This document shows, piece by piece, positions 28,854 to 35,831 of a stretch of DNA of 35,831 nt. The DNA comes from an uncultured Nitrosospira sp. (GTDB taxonomy: Bacteria; Nitrospirota; Nitrospiria; Nitrospirales; Nitrospiraceae): the NCBI GenBank assembly GCA_900696515.1, contig CAADGK010000086.1, positions 1 through 35,831 of the forward strand, read 5' to 3'. Under the pieces are notes generated by a model that saw nothing but the letters and a program-made list of their open reading frames with translations, was not told the DNA's origin and did not search any database. How positions within the stretch are numbered: position 1 is the stretch's first letter; the number at the start of each line of letters is the position of its first letter. A program made the position numbers and the translations under genes.

Positions 28854-29870
28854 ATGGCTGTTCCGATTTCCCAGATGTATACCGTGGCGACGTATGTCCT
28901 CTCCCAGAAGTTCAAGGGAGTGAGGCGATATCCTTTAGTCCTCATGCTGGAACCACTCTTTCGCTGCAATCTCGCTTGTGCGGGATGCGGGAAAATTCAG
29001 TATCCCGACCATGTGCTCGATAAACGGTTGACTCCCGAGCAGTGCTGGGCTGCTGCTGAAGAGTGCGGTGCTCCGATGGTGAGTATCCCCGGAGGGGAGC
29101 CGCTCATTCATCCTGAAATCGCAAAAATCGTCCAAGGCTTGGTGGATCGGAGAAAATATATTTATCTCTGTACGAATGCCATCCTTTTGGAACGAAAGCT
29201 CGATGAGTTTACGCCTTCTAAATATTTAACGTTTAGCGTCCATATGGATGGACTCAAGGACGAACACGACTTGGCGGTCTGTCGTGATGGAGTCTATGAT
29301 GTCGCCGTGAAGGCAATCAAGGCGGCAGTCAAGCGTGGGCACCGAGTGACGACCAATACGACGTTATTTGATGATGCCAATCCGGAACGAGTCAGAACGT
29401 TTTTCGATGAGATGATGGCTCTTGGTGTCGAAGGGATGACCATCTCGCCGGGCTATAGTTATCAAAAAGCTCCGGATCAGCAGCATTTCTTGAAACGGTC
29501 ACGAACCCAGGAGCTGTTTTCGAAAATTCTGAGCCGTCCCAAACCGGGCTGGCACTTTAATCAATCCCCCCTGTTTTTGGACTTCTTGATGGGGCGACGC
29601 GAATATCAATGTACGCCCTGGGGAAATCCGACGTACAACGTCTTTGGATGGCAGAAGCCCTGTTACTTACTTCAGGAAGGTTATACCCGAACTTTTCGAG
29701 AGTTGATGGAATTGACGGAGTGGGAGAAGTATGGGACTGGGCGAAACGAAAAGTGTGCTGATTGTATGGTCCATTGCGGCTATGAGGCGTCGGCGGTTGA
29801 AGATACGTTTAGTACCGCCTCAGGATTTGCGAGAACTGCCAAGTTGACCCTATTGCCTACCTCGCGGTAA
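28854..29870 (+). CDS. hpnH: adenosylhopane synthase HpnH (hopanoid radical SAM enzyme)
   Basis: 338 residues. HpnH adds the 5'-deoxyadenosyl group to diploptene, giving adenosylhopane, the first step to extended (C35) hopanoids. The start MAVPISQMYTVATYVLSQK is nearly diagnostic. The radical-SAM cluster motif is CNLACAGC (Cys38, Cys42, Cys45), with GGEPLIHPEI as the SAM-binding GGE block. The C-terminal cysteine region includes QCTPWGNPTYNVFGWQKPCY and CADCMVHCGYE. ATG 28854 follows AAGGAGA by about 6 bases. HpnG, which processes its product, is encoded in the shc operon. Separate promoter from shc. Confidence 0.97.
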   Translation: MAVPISQMYTVATYVLSQKFKGVRRYPLVLMLEPLFRCNLACAGCGKIQYPDHVLDKRLTPEQCWAAAEECGAPMVSIPGGEPLIHPEIAKIVQGLVDRRKYIYLCTNAILLERKLDEFTPSKYLTFSVHMDGLKDEHDLAVCRDGVYDVAVKAIKAAVKRGHRVTTNTTLFDDANPERVRTFFDEMMALGVEGMTISPGYSYQKAPDQQHFLKRSRTQELFSKILSRPKPGWHFNQSPLFLDFLMGRREYQCTPWGNPTYNVFGWQKPCYLLQEGYTRTFRELMELTEWEKYGTGRNEKCADCMVHCGYEASAVEDTFSTASGFARTAKLTLLPTSR

Positions 29871-29966: not shown

Positions 29967-30359
29967 ATGACTGATACCAAGAATCACGCCGTTGCGATTT
30001 CAAGTTCACTTGAGGGGCGGGCGTTTACGCCGGTCTCCGCGTCCGATACGATCGAGGCCGTTGAACTCGCATTCGACTATCGTGGCGACGTGACGTTGAC
30101 GCTCCGCTCCGGTGAATCGATCACCGGCTATATTTACAATCGCCATGTCTCCGCCGCTGATTCCTACCTTGAATTGTTTCCCGCCGACCGTCCGGAGGCT
30201 CAGCGCGTTCCATATGCCGACATCGCCACGATTGCATTCACGGGTGAGGATACGGCCAACGGGAAATCCTGGGAAAATTGGGTGTCTAAAAAGGAATCCG
30301 AGCGTCAGGCGGAAGCGGCAAAGCTGGAAGCGGATGCACGCACACGGGGCTACCTCTAA
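29967..30359 (+). CDS. small cytosolic protein of unknown function, downstream of hpnH
   Basis: 130 residues, no signal peptide or membrane helix. The middle (FDYRGDVTLTLRSGESITGY, then IYNRHVSAADSYLELFPAD) has the beta-strand rhythm of a small Sm/SH3-like barrel, with VPYADIATIAFTGEDTA closing it. The last 30 residues (SKKESERQAEAAKLEADART) are a charged helix. ATG 29967 has no strong ribosome-binding site. It lies 97 bases after hpnH on the same strand with the heptad repeats between. I do not recognise the family; the barrel fold is a guess from pattern only. Confidence 0.7.
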   Translation: MTDTKNHAVAISSSLEGRAFTPVSASDTIEAVELAFDYRGDVTLTLRSGESITGYIYNRHVSAADSYLELFPADRPEAQRVPYADIATIAFTGEDTANGKSWENWVSKKESERQAEAAKLEADARTRGYL

Positions 30360-30827: not shown

Positions 30828-31361
30828 GTGAGTGTGAGGTTTGGTAAGAGAGCACTGGGACGATTGCTCGCAGTCGCGGGTTGTATCGCAGTGAGCGTCG
30901 GCTTTCCTCCCATCGCTTCTGCGACGCACGAGGCGGATCATCGCTTCATGGTCGAAGGGTATGTCTGCGGGGCGGGTGGCGCGGGCCTCTCAAATGCGGA
31001 GGTGCTCGTCAAGGATACTCGGATTTCCTACGGCCAGGTCGTCAAGACAGACGGAGATGGTTATTATAAGGCCATGTTCCATCTGCATAACGACAATCTT
31101 GGGGATCCGCTGCTGGTGGAGGCGCTGGGGGAGCAAAAAAAACTGAAAATTGAATTTGATCCCAAGGATCTTGAAAGTGATAGGAAGGTCCGCGTTGATT
31201 TCGGGAGTGGATGTAGTAGGGCTAATTCTCCACCCTGGATGTGGTGGGGAGGTGGAGCGGTTCTTCTGGCGGCTGGTGGGGCGATTGGGTTGAGGCTTCT
31301 CAGTTCATCCGGAGGAAAGGCGAAGGGGAAGGGAAGATTGCAGGGTAAGAAAAAAGGGTAA
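30828..31361 (+). CDS. exported protein with carboxypeptidase-regulatory-like beta domain and C-terminal membrane anchor
   Basis: 177 residues. The signal peptide (1-32, LLAVAGCIAVSVGFPPIASA) is followed by one compact domain: YVCGAGGAGLSNAEVLVKDT, VVKTDGDGYYKAMFHLHND, LLVEALGEQKKLKIEFDP. This is the pattern of the transthyretin-like CarboxypepD regulatory fold. A hydrophobic segment (WWGGGAVLLAAGGAIGLRLL) and a Lys-rich tail follow, so the domain faces the periplasm with the tail in the cytosol. GTG 30828 follows GAGGAG by about 8 bases. The cytochrome c gene starts 55 bases downstream, so it may be an accessory of the respiratory module. The fold assignment is from pattern only. Confidence 0.65.
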   Translation: MSVRFGKRALGRLLAVAGCIAVSVGFPPIASATHEADHRFMVEGYVCGAGGAGLSNAEVLVKDTRISYGQVVKTDGDGYYKAMFHLHNDNLGDPLLVEALGEQKKLKIEFDPKDLESDRKVRVDFGSGCSRANSPPWMWWGGGAVLLAAGGAIGLRLLSSSGGKAKGKGRLQGKKKG

Positions 31362-31416
31362 TTGGAGAAAGCTCCAAGGGTCCTGGTTATTTATTGTCAG
31401 ATAGGCGTTCGTCTTC

Positions 31417-31899
31417 ATGAAGTTCGGAATTTTCCATGTCCAGGTCGCTCTGAGTCTGGGCTTGTTGCTTGGATGCAGTGGAGGTGATGAGGGTGATGGG
31501 CCGATCGTGCCTCCCCCTCCGGCGCCCGCTGAATATGCGGATAAGCATATGCCCCCGGGTTGGTGGGGAGATGCGCAGAAACTGGAAGAGGGGCGCAAGC
31601 TGTTCGTGGGCGAAGCGAATCCGGATGTCAATTGTGCCAGCTGCCATGGGAAAGATGGGAAACCTGTCAAGGCGGGGGCTACGGACTTTCGAAATCCAGA
31701 ACGCATGAAGCTCTATTCGGACTCCGTGTGGTTTTGGCGCATCTCGGAGGGTGTGCCCAATACCAAGATGAAGGGTTGGAAGAGCAAGCTTTCCGATGAT
31801 GATCGGTGGAAGCTTGTGCTGTTTGAACGAAGCTTTGGCTTGTCCGGAAAAATGTGGAGCGTGGAAACGAATCAATGGATTGATGCGGGCGCCAAATGA
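31417..31899 (+). CDS. monoheme cytochrome c lipoprotein
   Basis: 160 residues. A lipoprotein signal ending in the lipobox LLLGC (Cys20) is followed by a Gly/Pro-rich linker and a class I cytochrome c domain with CASCH (haem Cys73, Cys76 and His77). A probable axial Met is near 118 in NTKMKGW. The domain start EEGRKLFVGEANPDVNCASCHGKDG is typical of cbb3/SoxX-like small cytochromes. It would be anchored in a membrane facing the periplasm and pass electrons among the complexes encoded downstream. No strong ribosome-binding site is visible before ATG 31417. The next large gene starts 384 bases later. Confidence 0.92.
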   Translation: MKFGIFHVQVALSLGLLLGCSGGDEGDGPIVPPPPAPAEYADKHMPPGWWGDAQKLEEGRKLFVGEANPDVNCASCHGKDGKPVKAGATDFRNPERMKLYSDSVWFWRISEGVPNTKMKGWKSKLSDDDRWKLVLFERSFGLSGKMWSVETNQWIDAGAK

Positions 31900-32021
31900 C
31901 AATTCGATCAATGCAAGGGGTCGTCGCCGGCATGGGCTCTATCGGATTGGGAATGCAGTGCTGTAATGAATCTTCTGCTTTCTGCGTGGGCGAGATGAAG
32001 GAAGTTCATGGGTTTTTGTGA
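31896..32021 (+). CDS. possible 41-codon ORF overlapping the cytochrome c stop (ATGA)
   Basis: ATG 31896 overlaps the TGA of the cytochrome c gene by 4 bases, the usual form of translational coupling. It encodes a short protein with three cysteines (MQCCNES, AFCVGEM). No family is recognised and coding evidence is thin; the overlap may be chance. Confidence 0.2.
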   Translation: MTIRSMQGVVAGMGSIGLGMQCCNESSAFCVGEMKEVHGFL

Positions 32022-32282
32022 GGCGCTCAGCGATTCACTTGTTCAATTGTACTCGGTGAATCTGATACTATTTGCGCCGGCCTGAAATATTGTTTGGAGC
32101 TGTATCGACCAACGGTCATCACGCAAAGGCGATGTAGGTTATCTGATGGCAGGCCCTGGGTTGAGTGGGGCTCGCGCCCTGTGGGAATTCTGGTGGTTTG
32201 CAACTGGCAGCTGCGGTCGTGAGTCATAGGCTCCTCAGTGTTGGGTTCTTCTATATACAAGGATAGGGGGCATCGAGGCACC

Positions 32283-33995
32283 GTGAAAACACATTCGAGC
32301 AGTCTCCTGGCTCTGACTCTGGTGGCGTTATCGTGCGGCTTGGGTATTTCAGACGTATTCGCGCAAGAGGCTGGAACATCTCCTGTAGACTTCCCGTATA
32401 CCGGAAATAGAACGGCTGTTTGGATCGTCGCGCAGCTGCACATCCTGTTCGCAGCCTTCATTCTTGGCGCTCCGATCTTTGTCGTGATCTCGGAATGGTT
32501 AGGCTACCGGAAGCAAGATCCTCGATACGATCGTCTTGCAAAAGAAGTGACAAAGGTGACGGTCATTCTTTTCAGCATGACGGCGGTAACCGGCGGATTG
32601 TTCATCTTTGTTCTCCTTGCTGCCTATCCACAGTTTACGACGTCCTTCATTAATCAGTTCTATGTAGTCTTCGCGATCCTGTACCCGGCCTTGTTTATCG
32701 CGGAGACGATCCTTATGTATGCCTATCTCTACACATGGGATATTTGGAAAGGCGAGAAGAAGGGGCGCCATATCGCACTGGGCGTGCTGCTAAATCTCGT
32801 GTGCCTGCTGATTCTGTTCGTGATCAACGGACCGACATCATTCATGAATACCCCGCCGAAGGCCGAGGGTGTTTCGCCGCAGGACTTCATCGCTGCGGCG
32901 ACCTTGTGGGACAAGATTGCAAATCAAAGTTGGTTCCCGCTCAGCCTCCATCGAATCGACGGGAATGTCGCATTCGGCGGCTTCATTGCAGGCATGATCG
33001 CCGCGTACATGTACATGGCGGCCAAGACGAAGGAAGAGCGGGCGTATTACGACTGGATGGGATTCGTCGCGATCTGGATCGCCGTCGGCGGATCACTATT
33101 GCAGCCCTTCACAGGGCTTTTGTTGGCCTATGAGATGTGCGATTACGATTTCTCGTTCTGTCCGTACATGATGGCCGATCAGCTTTCCATGTTTTTTGAG
33201 ATGCAGGGGATCATGATCGGGCTGCTCTTCCTGGGCGTCAACTATTACAGCTGGCTGAGTGTTAAGCGTATTGAAGGTGCCGACAATGTTCGGATGAGCA
33301 TCCTGGCTCCCATTGTGCTGATCGTCTTGCTCCCGGTGACCATGTGGGTGATGAACAGCTGGTGGATTCCGGACCCGATGTCGCTGGCGTTCCTCCTGCC
33401 TCTGACGCTGTCCCCGTTCCTGCTCGGGCGTTTTATTCCGGTAACGGTTTCTGCCAGGACAGTCATCAAGATCGGATTTATCGTCATGCTCATCAGCGAT
33501 GCGGTCTGGCTCACTCCTGCCGGCTTTGTGGCCACCGGTACGGATATGCCTGATGAGCTGAAGTTGCCGGAAGGGTGGGACTATCTCTCGTCGATGCCGG
33601 CGAAGTTGTCTGCCATCTTTACGCTGGTGTTCGTCACGATCGTCAACTTTGTTCTGTACAATCGCGCGATTAAGCAAGGAACGATTGTCTGGGGAAAGAT
33701 CGACTTTGCGGCTCAATTCGTCTTGATTTTCCTGGCGTTCACGTCGACCTGGATTATGGGGCTTATGGGCGCTGTGCGCTCGCTGTTGAAAAAGTATTTC
33801 CATACCTACAGTCTGGTGTCGGATCTCAGCGCGGAGTCGTTTACTCCGACGCTTTCGTATTCCGCCGGATGGATCACTGCTATTACGGTCTTTTTTATCG
33901 CTGTTGTGACAGTCGCAGCACTGATTGCCATTCGGCCTTCTGTGGCGCCGGCCAAAGAGCCTGAAGGGAGTCCTGTTCCTGTTCCGGTCAAATAA
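32283..33995 (+). CDS. cytochrome bd-like oxidase subunit I (Nitrospira-type), with signal peptide
   Basis: 570 residues. A signal peptide (1-28, LLALTLVALSCGLGISDVFA) is followed by about 13-14 membrane segments. The first segment (WIVAQLHILFAAFILGAPIF, His53) and the block SLHRIDGNVAFGGF (His223) align by eye with the CydA haem ligands near its first segment and at E. coli His186. His163 and His507 are further candidates. The CydA quinol-loop motif is not recognised, and the sequence is clearly distant from ordinary CydA. In Nitrospira such proteins have been proposed as a novel bd-like terminal oxidase receiving electrons from cytochrome c. GTG 32283 is chosen because it gives a clean signal peptide and GAGG lies about 5 bases before it; an upstream in-frame start at 32238 would not. 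No cydB is adjacent; cytochrome c and Rieske genes follow instead. Confidence 0.82.
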   Translation: MKTHSSSLLALTLVALSCGLGISDVFAQEAGTSPVDFPYTGNRTAVWIVAQLHILFAAFILGAPIFVVISEWLGYRKQDPRYDRLAKEVTKVTVILFSMTAVTGGLFIFVLLAAYPQFTTSFINQFYVVFAILYPALFIAETILMYAYLYTWDIWKGEKKGRHIALGVLLNLVCLLILFVINGPTSFMNTPPKAEGVSPQDFIAAATLWDKIANQSWFPLSLHRIDGNVAFGGFIAGMIAAYMYMAAKTKEERAYYDWMGFVAIWIAVGGSLLQPFTGLLLAYEMCDYDFSFCPYMMADQLSMFFEMQGIMIGLLFLGVNYYSWLSVKRIEGADNVRMSILAPIVLIVLLPVTMWVMNSWWIPDPMSLAFLLPLTLSPFLLGRFIPVTVSARTVIKIGFIVMLISDAVWLTPAGFVATGTDMPDELKLPEGWDYLSSMPAKLSAIFTLVFVTIVNFVLYNRAIKQGTIVWGKIDFAAQFVLIFLAFTSTWIMGLMGAVRSLLKKYFHTYSLVSDLSAESFTPTLSYSAGWITAITVFFIAVVTVAALIAIRPSVAPAKEPEGSPVPVPVK

Positions 33996-34034
33996 TCACT
34001 TTGTGGGGCATCTACCGAGGCAGCGAGAAATCAC

Positions 34035-34844
34035 ATGTGGAATTTATTTAAAAAGCTAGCGGTTGGCTTAGTAGTCGGCGGGGCTCTTATGGCCATCGCC
34101 AATTCACAAGAAGTGCCGGTGAGCTTCCAGATTTTGTTCTTTGTTGTCTCGCTGATCGGGGCCGGTATCTTTGCGCTTCTTGACGCAAAGACCGTGAACG
34201 TGATGAGCGGAGGGATGTCCTTTCTTGCCGTGACCGTGTTTTGGGTTTTTCTCATCTCGGTGTGCGTCGCCGGCGCGTCATTCCTGCCGCAGTTCGACCC
34301 TGAAGATGAAAAGGCTAAGATCGGCAAACTCCTTGACAAAGAGCGTAAGCAGTCGGCCCAGGGAAAGACCGAAGAGCTGATTGCTCGTGCCAAAGCCCTC
34401 GATGCGCAAGTAAAAGCGTTGGAAGATCGCCTCAAGGGTATCGGGGGTGGACAGGCGGTGGCAGCGGTTCAAGTTCCTCCAGCTGGAGAAAAACCTGCTG
34501 CTGCGGGGGGTGGCGCTTCCGGTGACATCATGAAAATCGGCGAAGAGCAGTGGCAACTGCAGGAATGCTACAACTGTCACAAGTTGAGGGGCGAGGGGGG
34601 CAAGAAGCGGGGTCCTGAGTTGGATAATATCGGCACCTTGCTGACGGTCGAGGAGATTCAGCAAAAAATTGCCGACCCGAAGAGCTTCATGGCCGAAGGG
34701 TATGACAAGGAGTGGCAAAAGGGCATTATGCCCGACAAATTCAAAGATCTCATGGATCCCAAAGAAATGCTGGCGCTGGCTACCTGGTTAGGTTCCTTCA
34801 AGAACACCGCAATCAATACTCCCAAGCCAATCAAGAAAAAGTAA
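34035..34844 (+). CDS. membrane-anchored monoheme cytochrome c with coiled-coil linker
   Basis: 269 residues. Up to three hydrophobic segments lie at about 9-23, 32-50 and 62-83. A charged helical stretch at about 88-135 (KTEELIARAKALDAQVKALEDR) should form a coiled coil, and a Pro/Ala/Gly linker follows. The C-terminal cytochrome c domain has CYNCH (Cys178, Cys181, His182), the KRGPELDNIG block and a probable Met ligand in GIMPDKF. The haem would sit in the periplasm near the bd-like oxidase encoded 39 bases upstream. Its stop overlaps the Rieske start (TAATG), so the two are translated together. Confidence 0.9.
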   Translation: MWNLFKKLAVGLVVGGALMAIANSQEVPVSFQILFFVVSLIGAGIFALLDAKTVNVMSGGMSFLAVTVFWVFLISVCVAGASFLPQFDPEDEKAKIGKLLDKERKQSAQGKTEELIARAKALDAQVKALEDRLKGIGGGQAVAAVQVPPAGEKPAAAGGGASGDIMKIGEEQWQLQECYNCHKLRGEGGKKRGPELDNIGTLLTVEEIQQKIADPKSFMAEGYDKEWQKGIMPDKFKDLMDPKEMLALATWLGSFKNTAINTPKPIKKK

Positions 34845-35779
34845 TGCTGCAACCCAAATTGAAATCTAAGGTCCGTTGCACGGACCAGGACATCGGCGAA
34901 GTCACTCGGGTCGTGCTTGATCCGCTTTCCCATGAAATCAGTCATATCGTCGTCTCCATGAACGGCAGTGGAGAGCGACAGGTCATGATGACCCAGGTTC
35001 AGGACGTTACGGAGGACGCGGTACAGCTACGGGGTCCTTCCTCGGATATCTTGGCGTTGCCTCCCTTTAAACGTGAAGACTATGTCACGACACACGAGGT
35101 GGAGATCTCGCATCTGGAAGACCATATCCATGTCACGCCTGGCGAGGTGTTGGTCCCTCTTCCTGATCTGGAGAAGAACGTCAAGCGTCGAACATTTTTC
35201 ATGAACTTTACCCATGTTATTGGGTTTCTGATCGGACTCCCTCTTGCCTACCCCATCCTTCGCTTTTTGATGAAGCCGATGTATGCAGATTTTGACAACG
35301 CCTGGCTCAAGGTCGGGAACGTCAGCAAAATTAAGCAAGAGGATGTCGGGACGCAGTTTAAATACAAAAAACAGGTCAAAGAGGCATACATGCCCGAGTA
35401 CGAAGTCGAGAAGAACGTCTGGGTGCTCCGGGCGACCCCCGACCTGCTGGAGAGGGTGTATCAGGGTAAAGATGTCGAATTCCACGATGCTAAGGGGAAG
35501 GCCATCTGGACCAACAAAAAAGATGTTCCCTATATCGCATTTTCCGGTAAGTGCCCCCATCTTGGCTGTGGCTTCAAATGGCGACAGCATAAGGCCTTGG
35601 GCCAGGTGTTTCTCTGCCCCTGCCATTTGAGTATCTATGATGCGGGGGGGAAAGTTCTTGATGGACCGGCGCCCCGTGGATTGGATGCCTTGCCGGTAAA
35701 GGTGTCGCCTTCCGGCGAGGTTGAGATCATCGATATGGAATTTAAGGCCGGCACGAAGTCACAAATTCGGATTGTGTGA
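34844..35779 (+). CDS. Rieske iron-sulfur protein with N-terminal PRC-barrel-like domain
   Basis: 311 residues, longer than a usual bc1/b6f Rieske protein (about 170-200). Residues 1-80 (KSKVRCTDQDIGEVTRVVLD, HEISHIVVSMNG, and a loop after LQLRGPSSDI-like sequence) resemble a PRC barrel. A hydrophobic segment at about 118-142 then anchors the protein. The C-terminal Rieske fold has CPHLGC (Cys237, His239, Cys242) and CPCH (Cys258, Cys260, His261); the cluster ligands are Cys237, His239, Cys258 and His261, and the disulfide is Cys242-Cys260. ATG 34844 overlaps the cytochrome c stop by 1 base; the open frame further upstream is not used. A cytochrome b gene probably follows. It would be part of a bc-type complex III. 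Confidence 0.9.
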   Translation: MLQPKLKSKVRCTDQDIGEVTRVVLDPLSHEISHIVVSMNGSGERQVMMTQVQDVTEDAVQLRGPSSDILALPPFKREDYVTTHEVEISHLEDHIHVTPGEVLVPLPDLEKNVKRRTFFMNFTHVIGFLIGLPLAYPILRFLMKPMYADFDNAWLKVGNVSKIKQEDVGTQFKYKKQVKEAYMPEYEVEKNVWVLRATPDLLERVYQGKDVEFHDAKGKAIWTNKKDVPYIAFSGKCPHLGCGFKWRQHKALGQVFLCPCHLSIYDAGGKVLDGPAPRGLDALPVKVSPSGEVEIIDMEFKAGTKSQIRIV

Positions 35780-35791
35780 GCGCGTAGCATC

Positions 35792-35831
35792 ATGGATATG
35801 AAACACTCATCGCCTGCCGTGATCCCTGATC
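35792..35831 (+). CDS. start of the next operon gene, probably cytochrome b (partial)
   Basis: ATG 35792, 12 bases after the Rieske stop, opens MDMKHSSPAVIPD and runs off the window. Thirteen codons cannot identify a product; cytochrome b is expected only because it normally follows the Rieske gene. Confidence 0.4.
   Translation, partial: MDMKHSSPAVIPD

Follow-up and report, generated by a model that had tools for sequence, protein, structure and literature searches.

A CydA-like membrane protein encoded with two cytochromes c beside complex III genes in Nitrospira, and with molybdoenzymes elsewhere in the phylum

Most Nitrospira have no usual haem-copper oxidase, and the path that electrons take from nitrite to oxygen is an open question in a major step of the nitrogen cycle. 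A locus that bears on it lies at the end of the window analysed here, the entire contig G000:C86 (35,831 bases) of a genome whose closest named relatives are Nitrospira metagenome-assembled genomes such as RBC100 and UW-LDO-01. There, a gene for a protein resembling CydA, subunit I of cytochrome bd oxidases (bd1 in what follows), stands between two genes for cytochromes c and just ahead of the Rieske and cytochrome b (bc) genes of a complex III. What does a bd-like protein do in such company? The first-pass annotation, made from the sequence, had suggested a supercomplex in which electrons pass between quinone, Rieske protein, cytochrome c and the bd-like subunit, or run in reverse. We favour, with a little better than even confidence, a cytochrome-c-linked assembly of bc complex and CydA-like oxidase in which bd1 couples the c haems to the assembly. 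Open reading frames (ORFs) and Pfam matches bore out the four genes named at the outset (lipoprotein cytochrome c, bd-like protein, anchored cytochrome c and Rieske protein), each in its place:

30828..31361, + strand: tmCpr, an ORF for a small exported protein with a C-terminal membrane helix, the first gene of the syntenic cluster
31417..31899, + strand: cytc_lipo, a lipoprotein monohaem cytochrome c (Pfam Cytochrome_CBB3, E 7.6e-08)
32283..33995, + strand: bd1, a CydA-like membrane protein of 570 amino acids (aa) with a GTG start (PF01654, Cyt_bd_oxida_I, E 3e-24)
34035..34844, + strand: cytc_tm, a membrane-anchored monohaem cytochrome c with a single CYNCH (PF00034, E 2.1e-08)
34844..35779, + strand: Rieske iron-sulphur protein (PF00355, E 4e-08; TIGR01416, E 2.5e-16, under the curated cut-off)
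35792..35831, + strand: first codons of cytochrome b, the full gene being on contig C79 (L038:75-1202)

The bd1 protein is, on its predicted structure, a membrane protein of the CydA fold that lacks the quinol loop and has no CydB partner. Its AlphaFold2 model (predicted local distance difference test, pLDDT, 80.3; predicted template modelling score, pTM, 0.81) matched ten CydA structures with Z of 29.8-33.3, superposing 338-359 residues at 3.4-4.0 Å (351 residues at 3.6 Å for the best), and the next-best matches were ActC/ActF of alternative complex III (Z 20-22) and PsrC (Z 14.6). In the model, 13 long helices follow a signal-peptide-like one. It shows no counterpart of the CydA quinol loop, the helices that end at 288 and start at 299 being joined without a long loop, and the sequence lacks the GRQPW motif. 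As the first-pass annotation had noted, there is no cydB in the cluster; furthermore, CydB is encoded just twice in the genome, both times next to a canonical CydA. A distant cydB partner and a conserved quinol loop, which that annotation had listed as evidence that would count against it, were both looked for in this genome and protein, and neither is present.

In CydA, H19, H186, E99, E107 and E445 are functional residues. In bd1, H53 and H223 correspond to the CydA haem ligands H19 and H186; all 115 sequences have both, and H163, M188, M492, M495 and H507 are likewise invariant, while the position of E99 is an invariant Tyr and E445, by eye only, is replaced by Met (M495). The alignment with CydA that had been proposed for finding haem ligands thus delivered the two histidines, but the profile comparison ends at residue 274, leaving the C-terminal half outside it; residue-level ligand mapping of that half was dropped. 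The signal-peptide-like N-terminus that had been called unusual does exist, as judged by eye, but it is found likewise in bd1 of N. moscoviensis and in a second CydA-like protein of the same cluster (bd2), and looks like a family feature.

Downstream of the Rieske gene stands the predicted cytochrome b and not a gene unrelated to complex III, which the first-pass annotation had named as the outcome that would speak against it. The gene starts at 35792 and is complete on C79 through an exact overlap, the last 114 bases of the window contig being the first 114 of C79. The protein (375 aa; PF00033, E 9.7e-49; PF00032, E 4.5e-08) has the four haem histidines (spacing x13 and x14) and PEWY, and the Rieske protein has CPHLGC at residue 237 and CPCHL at 258; with its haem histidine pairs and PEWY the cluster's Rieske/cytochrome b pair resembles a respiratory complex III. 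The stop codon of cytc_tm and the start codon of the Rieske gene overlap by one base. After cytochrome b, C79 encodes a 331-aa membrane protein, bd2, two cytochromes c with N-terminal hydrophobic stretches (cytc_a and cytc_b), an EB_dh protein (alt_NxrC_1) and a dihaem cytochrome c; bd2 therefore lies outside the window, after cytochrome b and the 331-aa protein.

This arrangement is strongly conserved. Among 80 loci from named genomes, and counting for each gene only the loci where it could be tested, cytc_tm is kept in 77/77 relatives, the Rieske gene in 76/76, cytochrome b and cytc_lipo in 73/73 each and tmCpr in 68/69; further on, the 331-aa protein is present in 70/70 and bd2 in 64/65. 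The sole bd2 exception (L088) was rejected as a loss: bd2 begins there and then runs into an N stretch, a scaffold gap. Since synteny is unbroken in all testable Nitrospirales loci, chance gene order can be excluded, and the bc genes adjoin bd1 in every cluster read in the class Nitrospiria (families f1-f4, f8, f9 and f41). The window is the first half of a conserved Nitrospirales complex III/bd-like oxidase cluster.

Both this locus and the supercomplex hypothesis are already published. The N. moscoviensis region with CIII_1, bd-like_1, bd-like_2 (a putative complex IV) and alt_NxrC_1 was described, and a supercomplex proposed for it, by Mundinger et al. 2019 (PMC6606698); the proposed supercomplex comprises complex III, both bd-like proteins and alt_NxrC_1, and co-expression of the cluster is reported in the same paper. 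The N. moscoviensis locus (L102) carries the genes found here, in the same order and with no substantive difference: bd1 of the window (71% identical to N. moscoviensis bd1) corresponds to bd-like_1 and bd2 of C79 to bd-like_2, and a pair on contig C77 matches bd-like_3 and bd-like_4 with alt_NxrC_2. The supercomplex reading of the first-pass annotation is thus plausible, not new. It agrees with the constant linkage of bc genes to bd1 in testable loci of the order and with the missing CydB and quinol loop, but it overlooked bd2 and the wider linkage of bd1 to two cytochromes c.

That wider linkage is seen outside the class. Together, bd1, cytc_tm and cytc_lipo are a conserved gene unit, and the bd1 clade (support 100/100) recurs in three families of other classes, with relatives of both cytochromes c, inside operons of the dimethyl sulphoxide (DMSO) reductase family:

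G092 (family f20): alpha (888 aa), beta (230 aa), haem protein, TorD-like chaperone, cytc_lipo, bd1, cytc_tm; gaps of ~50 bases or less
G228 (family f38): alpha (916 aa), beta (330 aa), bd1, a 407-aa fusion of cytc_tm and cytc_lipo
G050 (family f14): chaperone, tetrahaem protein, bd1, a 372-aa cytc_tm–cytc_lipo fusion, beta, alpha

G087, of the same genus as G092, shows the identical order as far as its contig end, and both halves of the two fusions were confirmed by BLAST. The G228 enzyme is a DMSO reductase of type II (beta above the curated cut-off); below cut-off, the best hits are of PhsA and TtrB type for G050 and of formate dehydrogenase and DmsB type for G092. By these matches the three molybdoenzymes are of different types. 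No NrfD- or NarI-type anchor was seen in the stretches of the three operons that were read, where a CydA-fold protein with c haems is found. The unit shares an operon with alpha and beta subunits in these genomes, whereas its partner in the window is complex III instead: within Nitrospiria it adjoins a Rieske/cytochrome b pair without a recognised cytochrome c1 gene. A family search gave no c1-family match in cytc_tm, which is a candidate for the c-haem subunit of complex III. Because the molybdoenzyme operons carry bd1 together with cytc_tm, cytc_tm accompanies bd1 over a wider range than complex III. It is tempting to see bd1 and the two cytochromes c as a membrane module of the cytochrome bd superfamily that transfers electrons and can pass from one enzyme to another, docking on complex III in Nitrospiria and on various molybdoenzymes elsewhere in the phylum. 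Such a module would not depend on bd2; its c haems would connect the enzyme that converts the substrate with a CydA-fold protein that has no canonical quinol site. We hold this tentatively, at somewhat less than an even chance. Only three independent operons were seen, and in the tree G228 and G050 sit on long branches that join each other.

The second CydA-like protein of the cluster, bd2, is a clear homologue of bd1, and the two form sister clades (support 96/94). Its model has low confidence (pLDDT 63.6), and only its overall match to CydA was used. The E107 equivalent of bd2 (E158) is kept in 98% of sequences; H268, H373, H389 and H390 are also invariant, H538 is kept in 98%, and no invariant histidine among the 115 bd1 sequences matches these extra ones. 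In three loci (L105, L152 and L161) bd2 is fused to cytc_a, which is good evidence that cytc_a is its partner. Of the two CydA-like proteins, bd2, with cytc_a, seems the more likely oxidase. In two genomes of genus g12 (G114:C7 and G191:C10), bd2 is reported with one in-frame TGA inside an 834-aa frame, which may be bd2 followed by an in-frame cytc_a and not recoding.

In the assembly that we favour, cytc_tm would be the c-haem subunit common to the Rieske protein and bd1, and the route would lead from quinol/quinone at cytochrome b through the Rieske protein and cytc_tm to a c pool with bd1 and bd2. Nitrite would deliver its electrons at the level of cytochrome c; from there they would reach oxygen via the bd-like proteins, more likely via bd2 with cytc_a, and a share of them would be driven in reverse by way of the bc proteins onto quinone to serve carbon fixation. 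For Nitrospira, electron flow in that direction, via complex III onto a methyl-plastoquinone, has been described (PMC12324825). Coupling the c haems to the assembly, bd1 could be either an electron-transfer partner or a second oxygen-reacting subunit.

Several observations weigh against this reading. The assembly as a physical complex is something that we infer from gene linkage, and the unit also occurs without a bc complex: no bc genes were found in the stretches read around the out-of-class bd1 units. E141 of bd1, the equivalent of E107, is Glu in 96/115 sequences and Gly in 19/115. Furthermore, a genome-wide search found bd1 and no bd2 in four genomes of family f4 (completeness 73-96%), and in the three of them with a long enough stretch the bc genes, cytc_a and cytc_di lie alongside bd1. 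The only CydA-like proteins that the search found in these four genomes are bd1 and, in 3/4, a further one (bd3); neither a haem-copper oxidase nor a canonical CydA gave a match there. Conversely, G212 and G263 each encode bd2 in two places, and neither genome gave a bd1 match at the search threshold. A further genome seemingly without bd2, G375, was rejected, its bd2 being on a different contig from bd1. Judged by gene content, then, bd1 and bd2 are separable, and no fixed bc–bd1–bd2 complex can be universal. As bd1, bc and bd2 occur together in f8 and f9, two families outside the order, f4 has most simply lost bd2. It is mainly because the f4 genomes have bd1 without bd2 that we do not give oxygen reduction to bd2 alone, and mainly because E141 is lost in 19 sequences that bd1 is doubtful as an oxygen reducer. 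The published supercomplex idea rests on gene order and expression, and separability sharpens it.

Could bd1 itself be the oxygen reductase, fed by cytochrome c with cytc_tm and cytc_lipo as donors, which the bc complex or a molybdoenzyme would supply in turn? Family f4 would fit this, keeping bd1 (and besides it only bd3) while having no bd2, haem-copper oxidase or canonical CydA, and so would the invariant haem-ligand histidines H53 and H223. The replacement of E141 by Gly in 19 of the 115 sequences and the Tyr at the E99 position argue the other way, as does bd2, with its E107 equivalent and its extra invariant histidines; f4 also has bd3, and may or may not respire oxygen. On balance we regard this explanation as unlikely.

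Proteins of this sort have a family of their own within the cytochrome bd superfamily, OR-N, which citing papers trace to Murali et al. 2021. Such proteins are filed there, and OR-N1 together with a NIDE0901-like OR-N2 is proposed to form a CydAA' oxidase (PMC12342949, PMC10839748). Like the family, bd1 is CydA-like, has neither CydB nor quinol loop and is expected to use cytochrome c. It is quite improbable, though, that bd1 and bd2 make up a heterodimer in which bd1 would be an obligate second subunit (CydA'). The two do share a cluster in nearly all Nitrospirales, they are sister clades, and the published pairing would point to such a heterodimer if bd1 is the OR-N1 of those papers; bd1 and bd3 are both candidates for that label. 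An obligate pair should co-occur, however, and bd1 is without bd2 in the f4 genomes, bd2 is without a bd1 match in G212 and G263, and bd1 has no bd2 nearby in the molybdoenzyme operons.

The weaker fold matches raise the idea that bd1 is a quinone-reactive, NrfD-like anchor that carries electrons from c haems to the quinone pool or back, as it might in reverse electron transport. The NrfD-like ActC/ActF, and PsrC, come second in the fold search, bd1 occupies the usual anchor place of the molybdoenzymes in the other classes, and a role like that of alternative complex III has been suggested for bd-like proteins (PMC3578206). We regard this as highly improbable: the resemblance is far weaker than that to CydA (Z about 30-33), the CydA quinol loop is missing, and a quinol site (PEWY) is already provided by cytochrome b next door. 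The cluster has no act genes either. Finally, a canonical quinol-oxidising CydA with its CydB elsewhere is refuted, short of an unrecognised CydB homologue: bd1 shares the subunit I fold, the Pfam match and the H19/H186 equivalents, but differs in its 13 long predicted helices and in having no quinol loop, no GRQPW and no CydB to itself, so that the chance is negligible.

Is the cluster tied to nitrite oxidation alone? With the NxrB of this genome as query, full-length relatives were found in G022, G027 and G036 and short contig-end pieces in f2 genomes. At E 1e-20 there was no match in the f4, f8, f9 and f41 genomes that carry the bd1–bc cluster; these genomes are incomplete, and the absence repeats over ten of them. 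Since the clusters of f8 and f9 include a relative of alt_NxrC_1 and their genomes gave no NxrB, alt_NxrC_1 is not solely an anchor of nitrite oxidoreductase (NXR), and a nitrite-only cluster with alt_NxrC_1 as the general NXR anchor is unsupported. In the papers that could be read we found no published descriptions of the cluster in genomes without a detected NxrB, of the bd1 unit in molybdoenzyme operons, of the separability of bd1 and bd2 or of the bd2–cytc_a fusions; a search of titles and abstracts, partial in coverage, gave no plain description of a bd-like protein beside a molybdoenzyme. These observations name the smallest conserved unit around bd1, argue that bd1 is independent of bd2 and make cytc_a the likely donor of bd2, and the f4 genomes and the molybdoenzyme operons are places where bd1 could be studied apart from bd2.

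Some further features of these proteins and their surroundings deserve mention. The bd1 sequences with Gly at E141 all come from Nitrospira-type loci (e.g. L079-L085, L095-L100 and L149-L150). A C286/C293 pair occurs in 105/115 bd1 sequences and is absent from those of f4, f8, f9 and the other classes. The bd1 of the window sits on a long branch (0.70) and bd2 of the same genome does not (0.25), and in this group of Nitrospira bd1 appears to change more quickly than the other genes of the cluster. A 660-aa open frame of f4 genomes at L170 (G025:C14) encodes a long iron-sulphur protein that differs from Nitrospira NxrB; it matches the NarH type weakly and contains a single CxxCH. Within the window, cytc_lipo has the lipobox LLLGC and a single CASCH, tmCpr has a weak carboxypeptidase-regulatory-like domain (PF13620, E 0.003, under its cut-off), and the Rieske protein (34844-35779) has an N-terminal extension of ~110 residues ahead of its membrane helix, PRC-barrel-like by eye and without a Pfam match there. 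The 331-aa protein (L038:1227-2222), for which Pfam likewise gave no match, separates cytochrome b from bd2 in families f1-f3 of the Nitrospirales; nothing recognisable as this protein was seen in the clusters of f8, f9 and f41, and only a weak trace of it in f4. Upstream of tmCpr, the window encodes an HpnH-type radical SAM protein (28854-29870; TIGR03470, E 2.3e-166) and a 130-aa protein of unknown kind (29967-30359); this pair, not found ahead of the cluster in f4, f8 and f9, precedes it in nearly all long-enough Nitrospirales loci.

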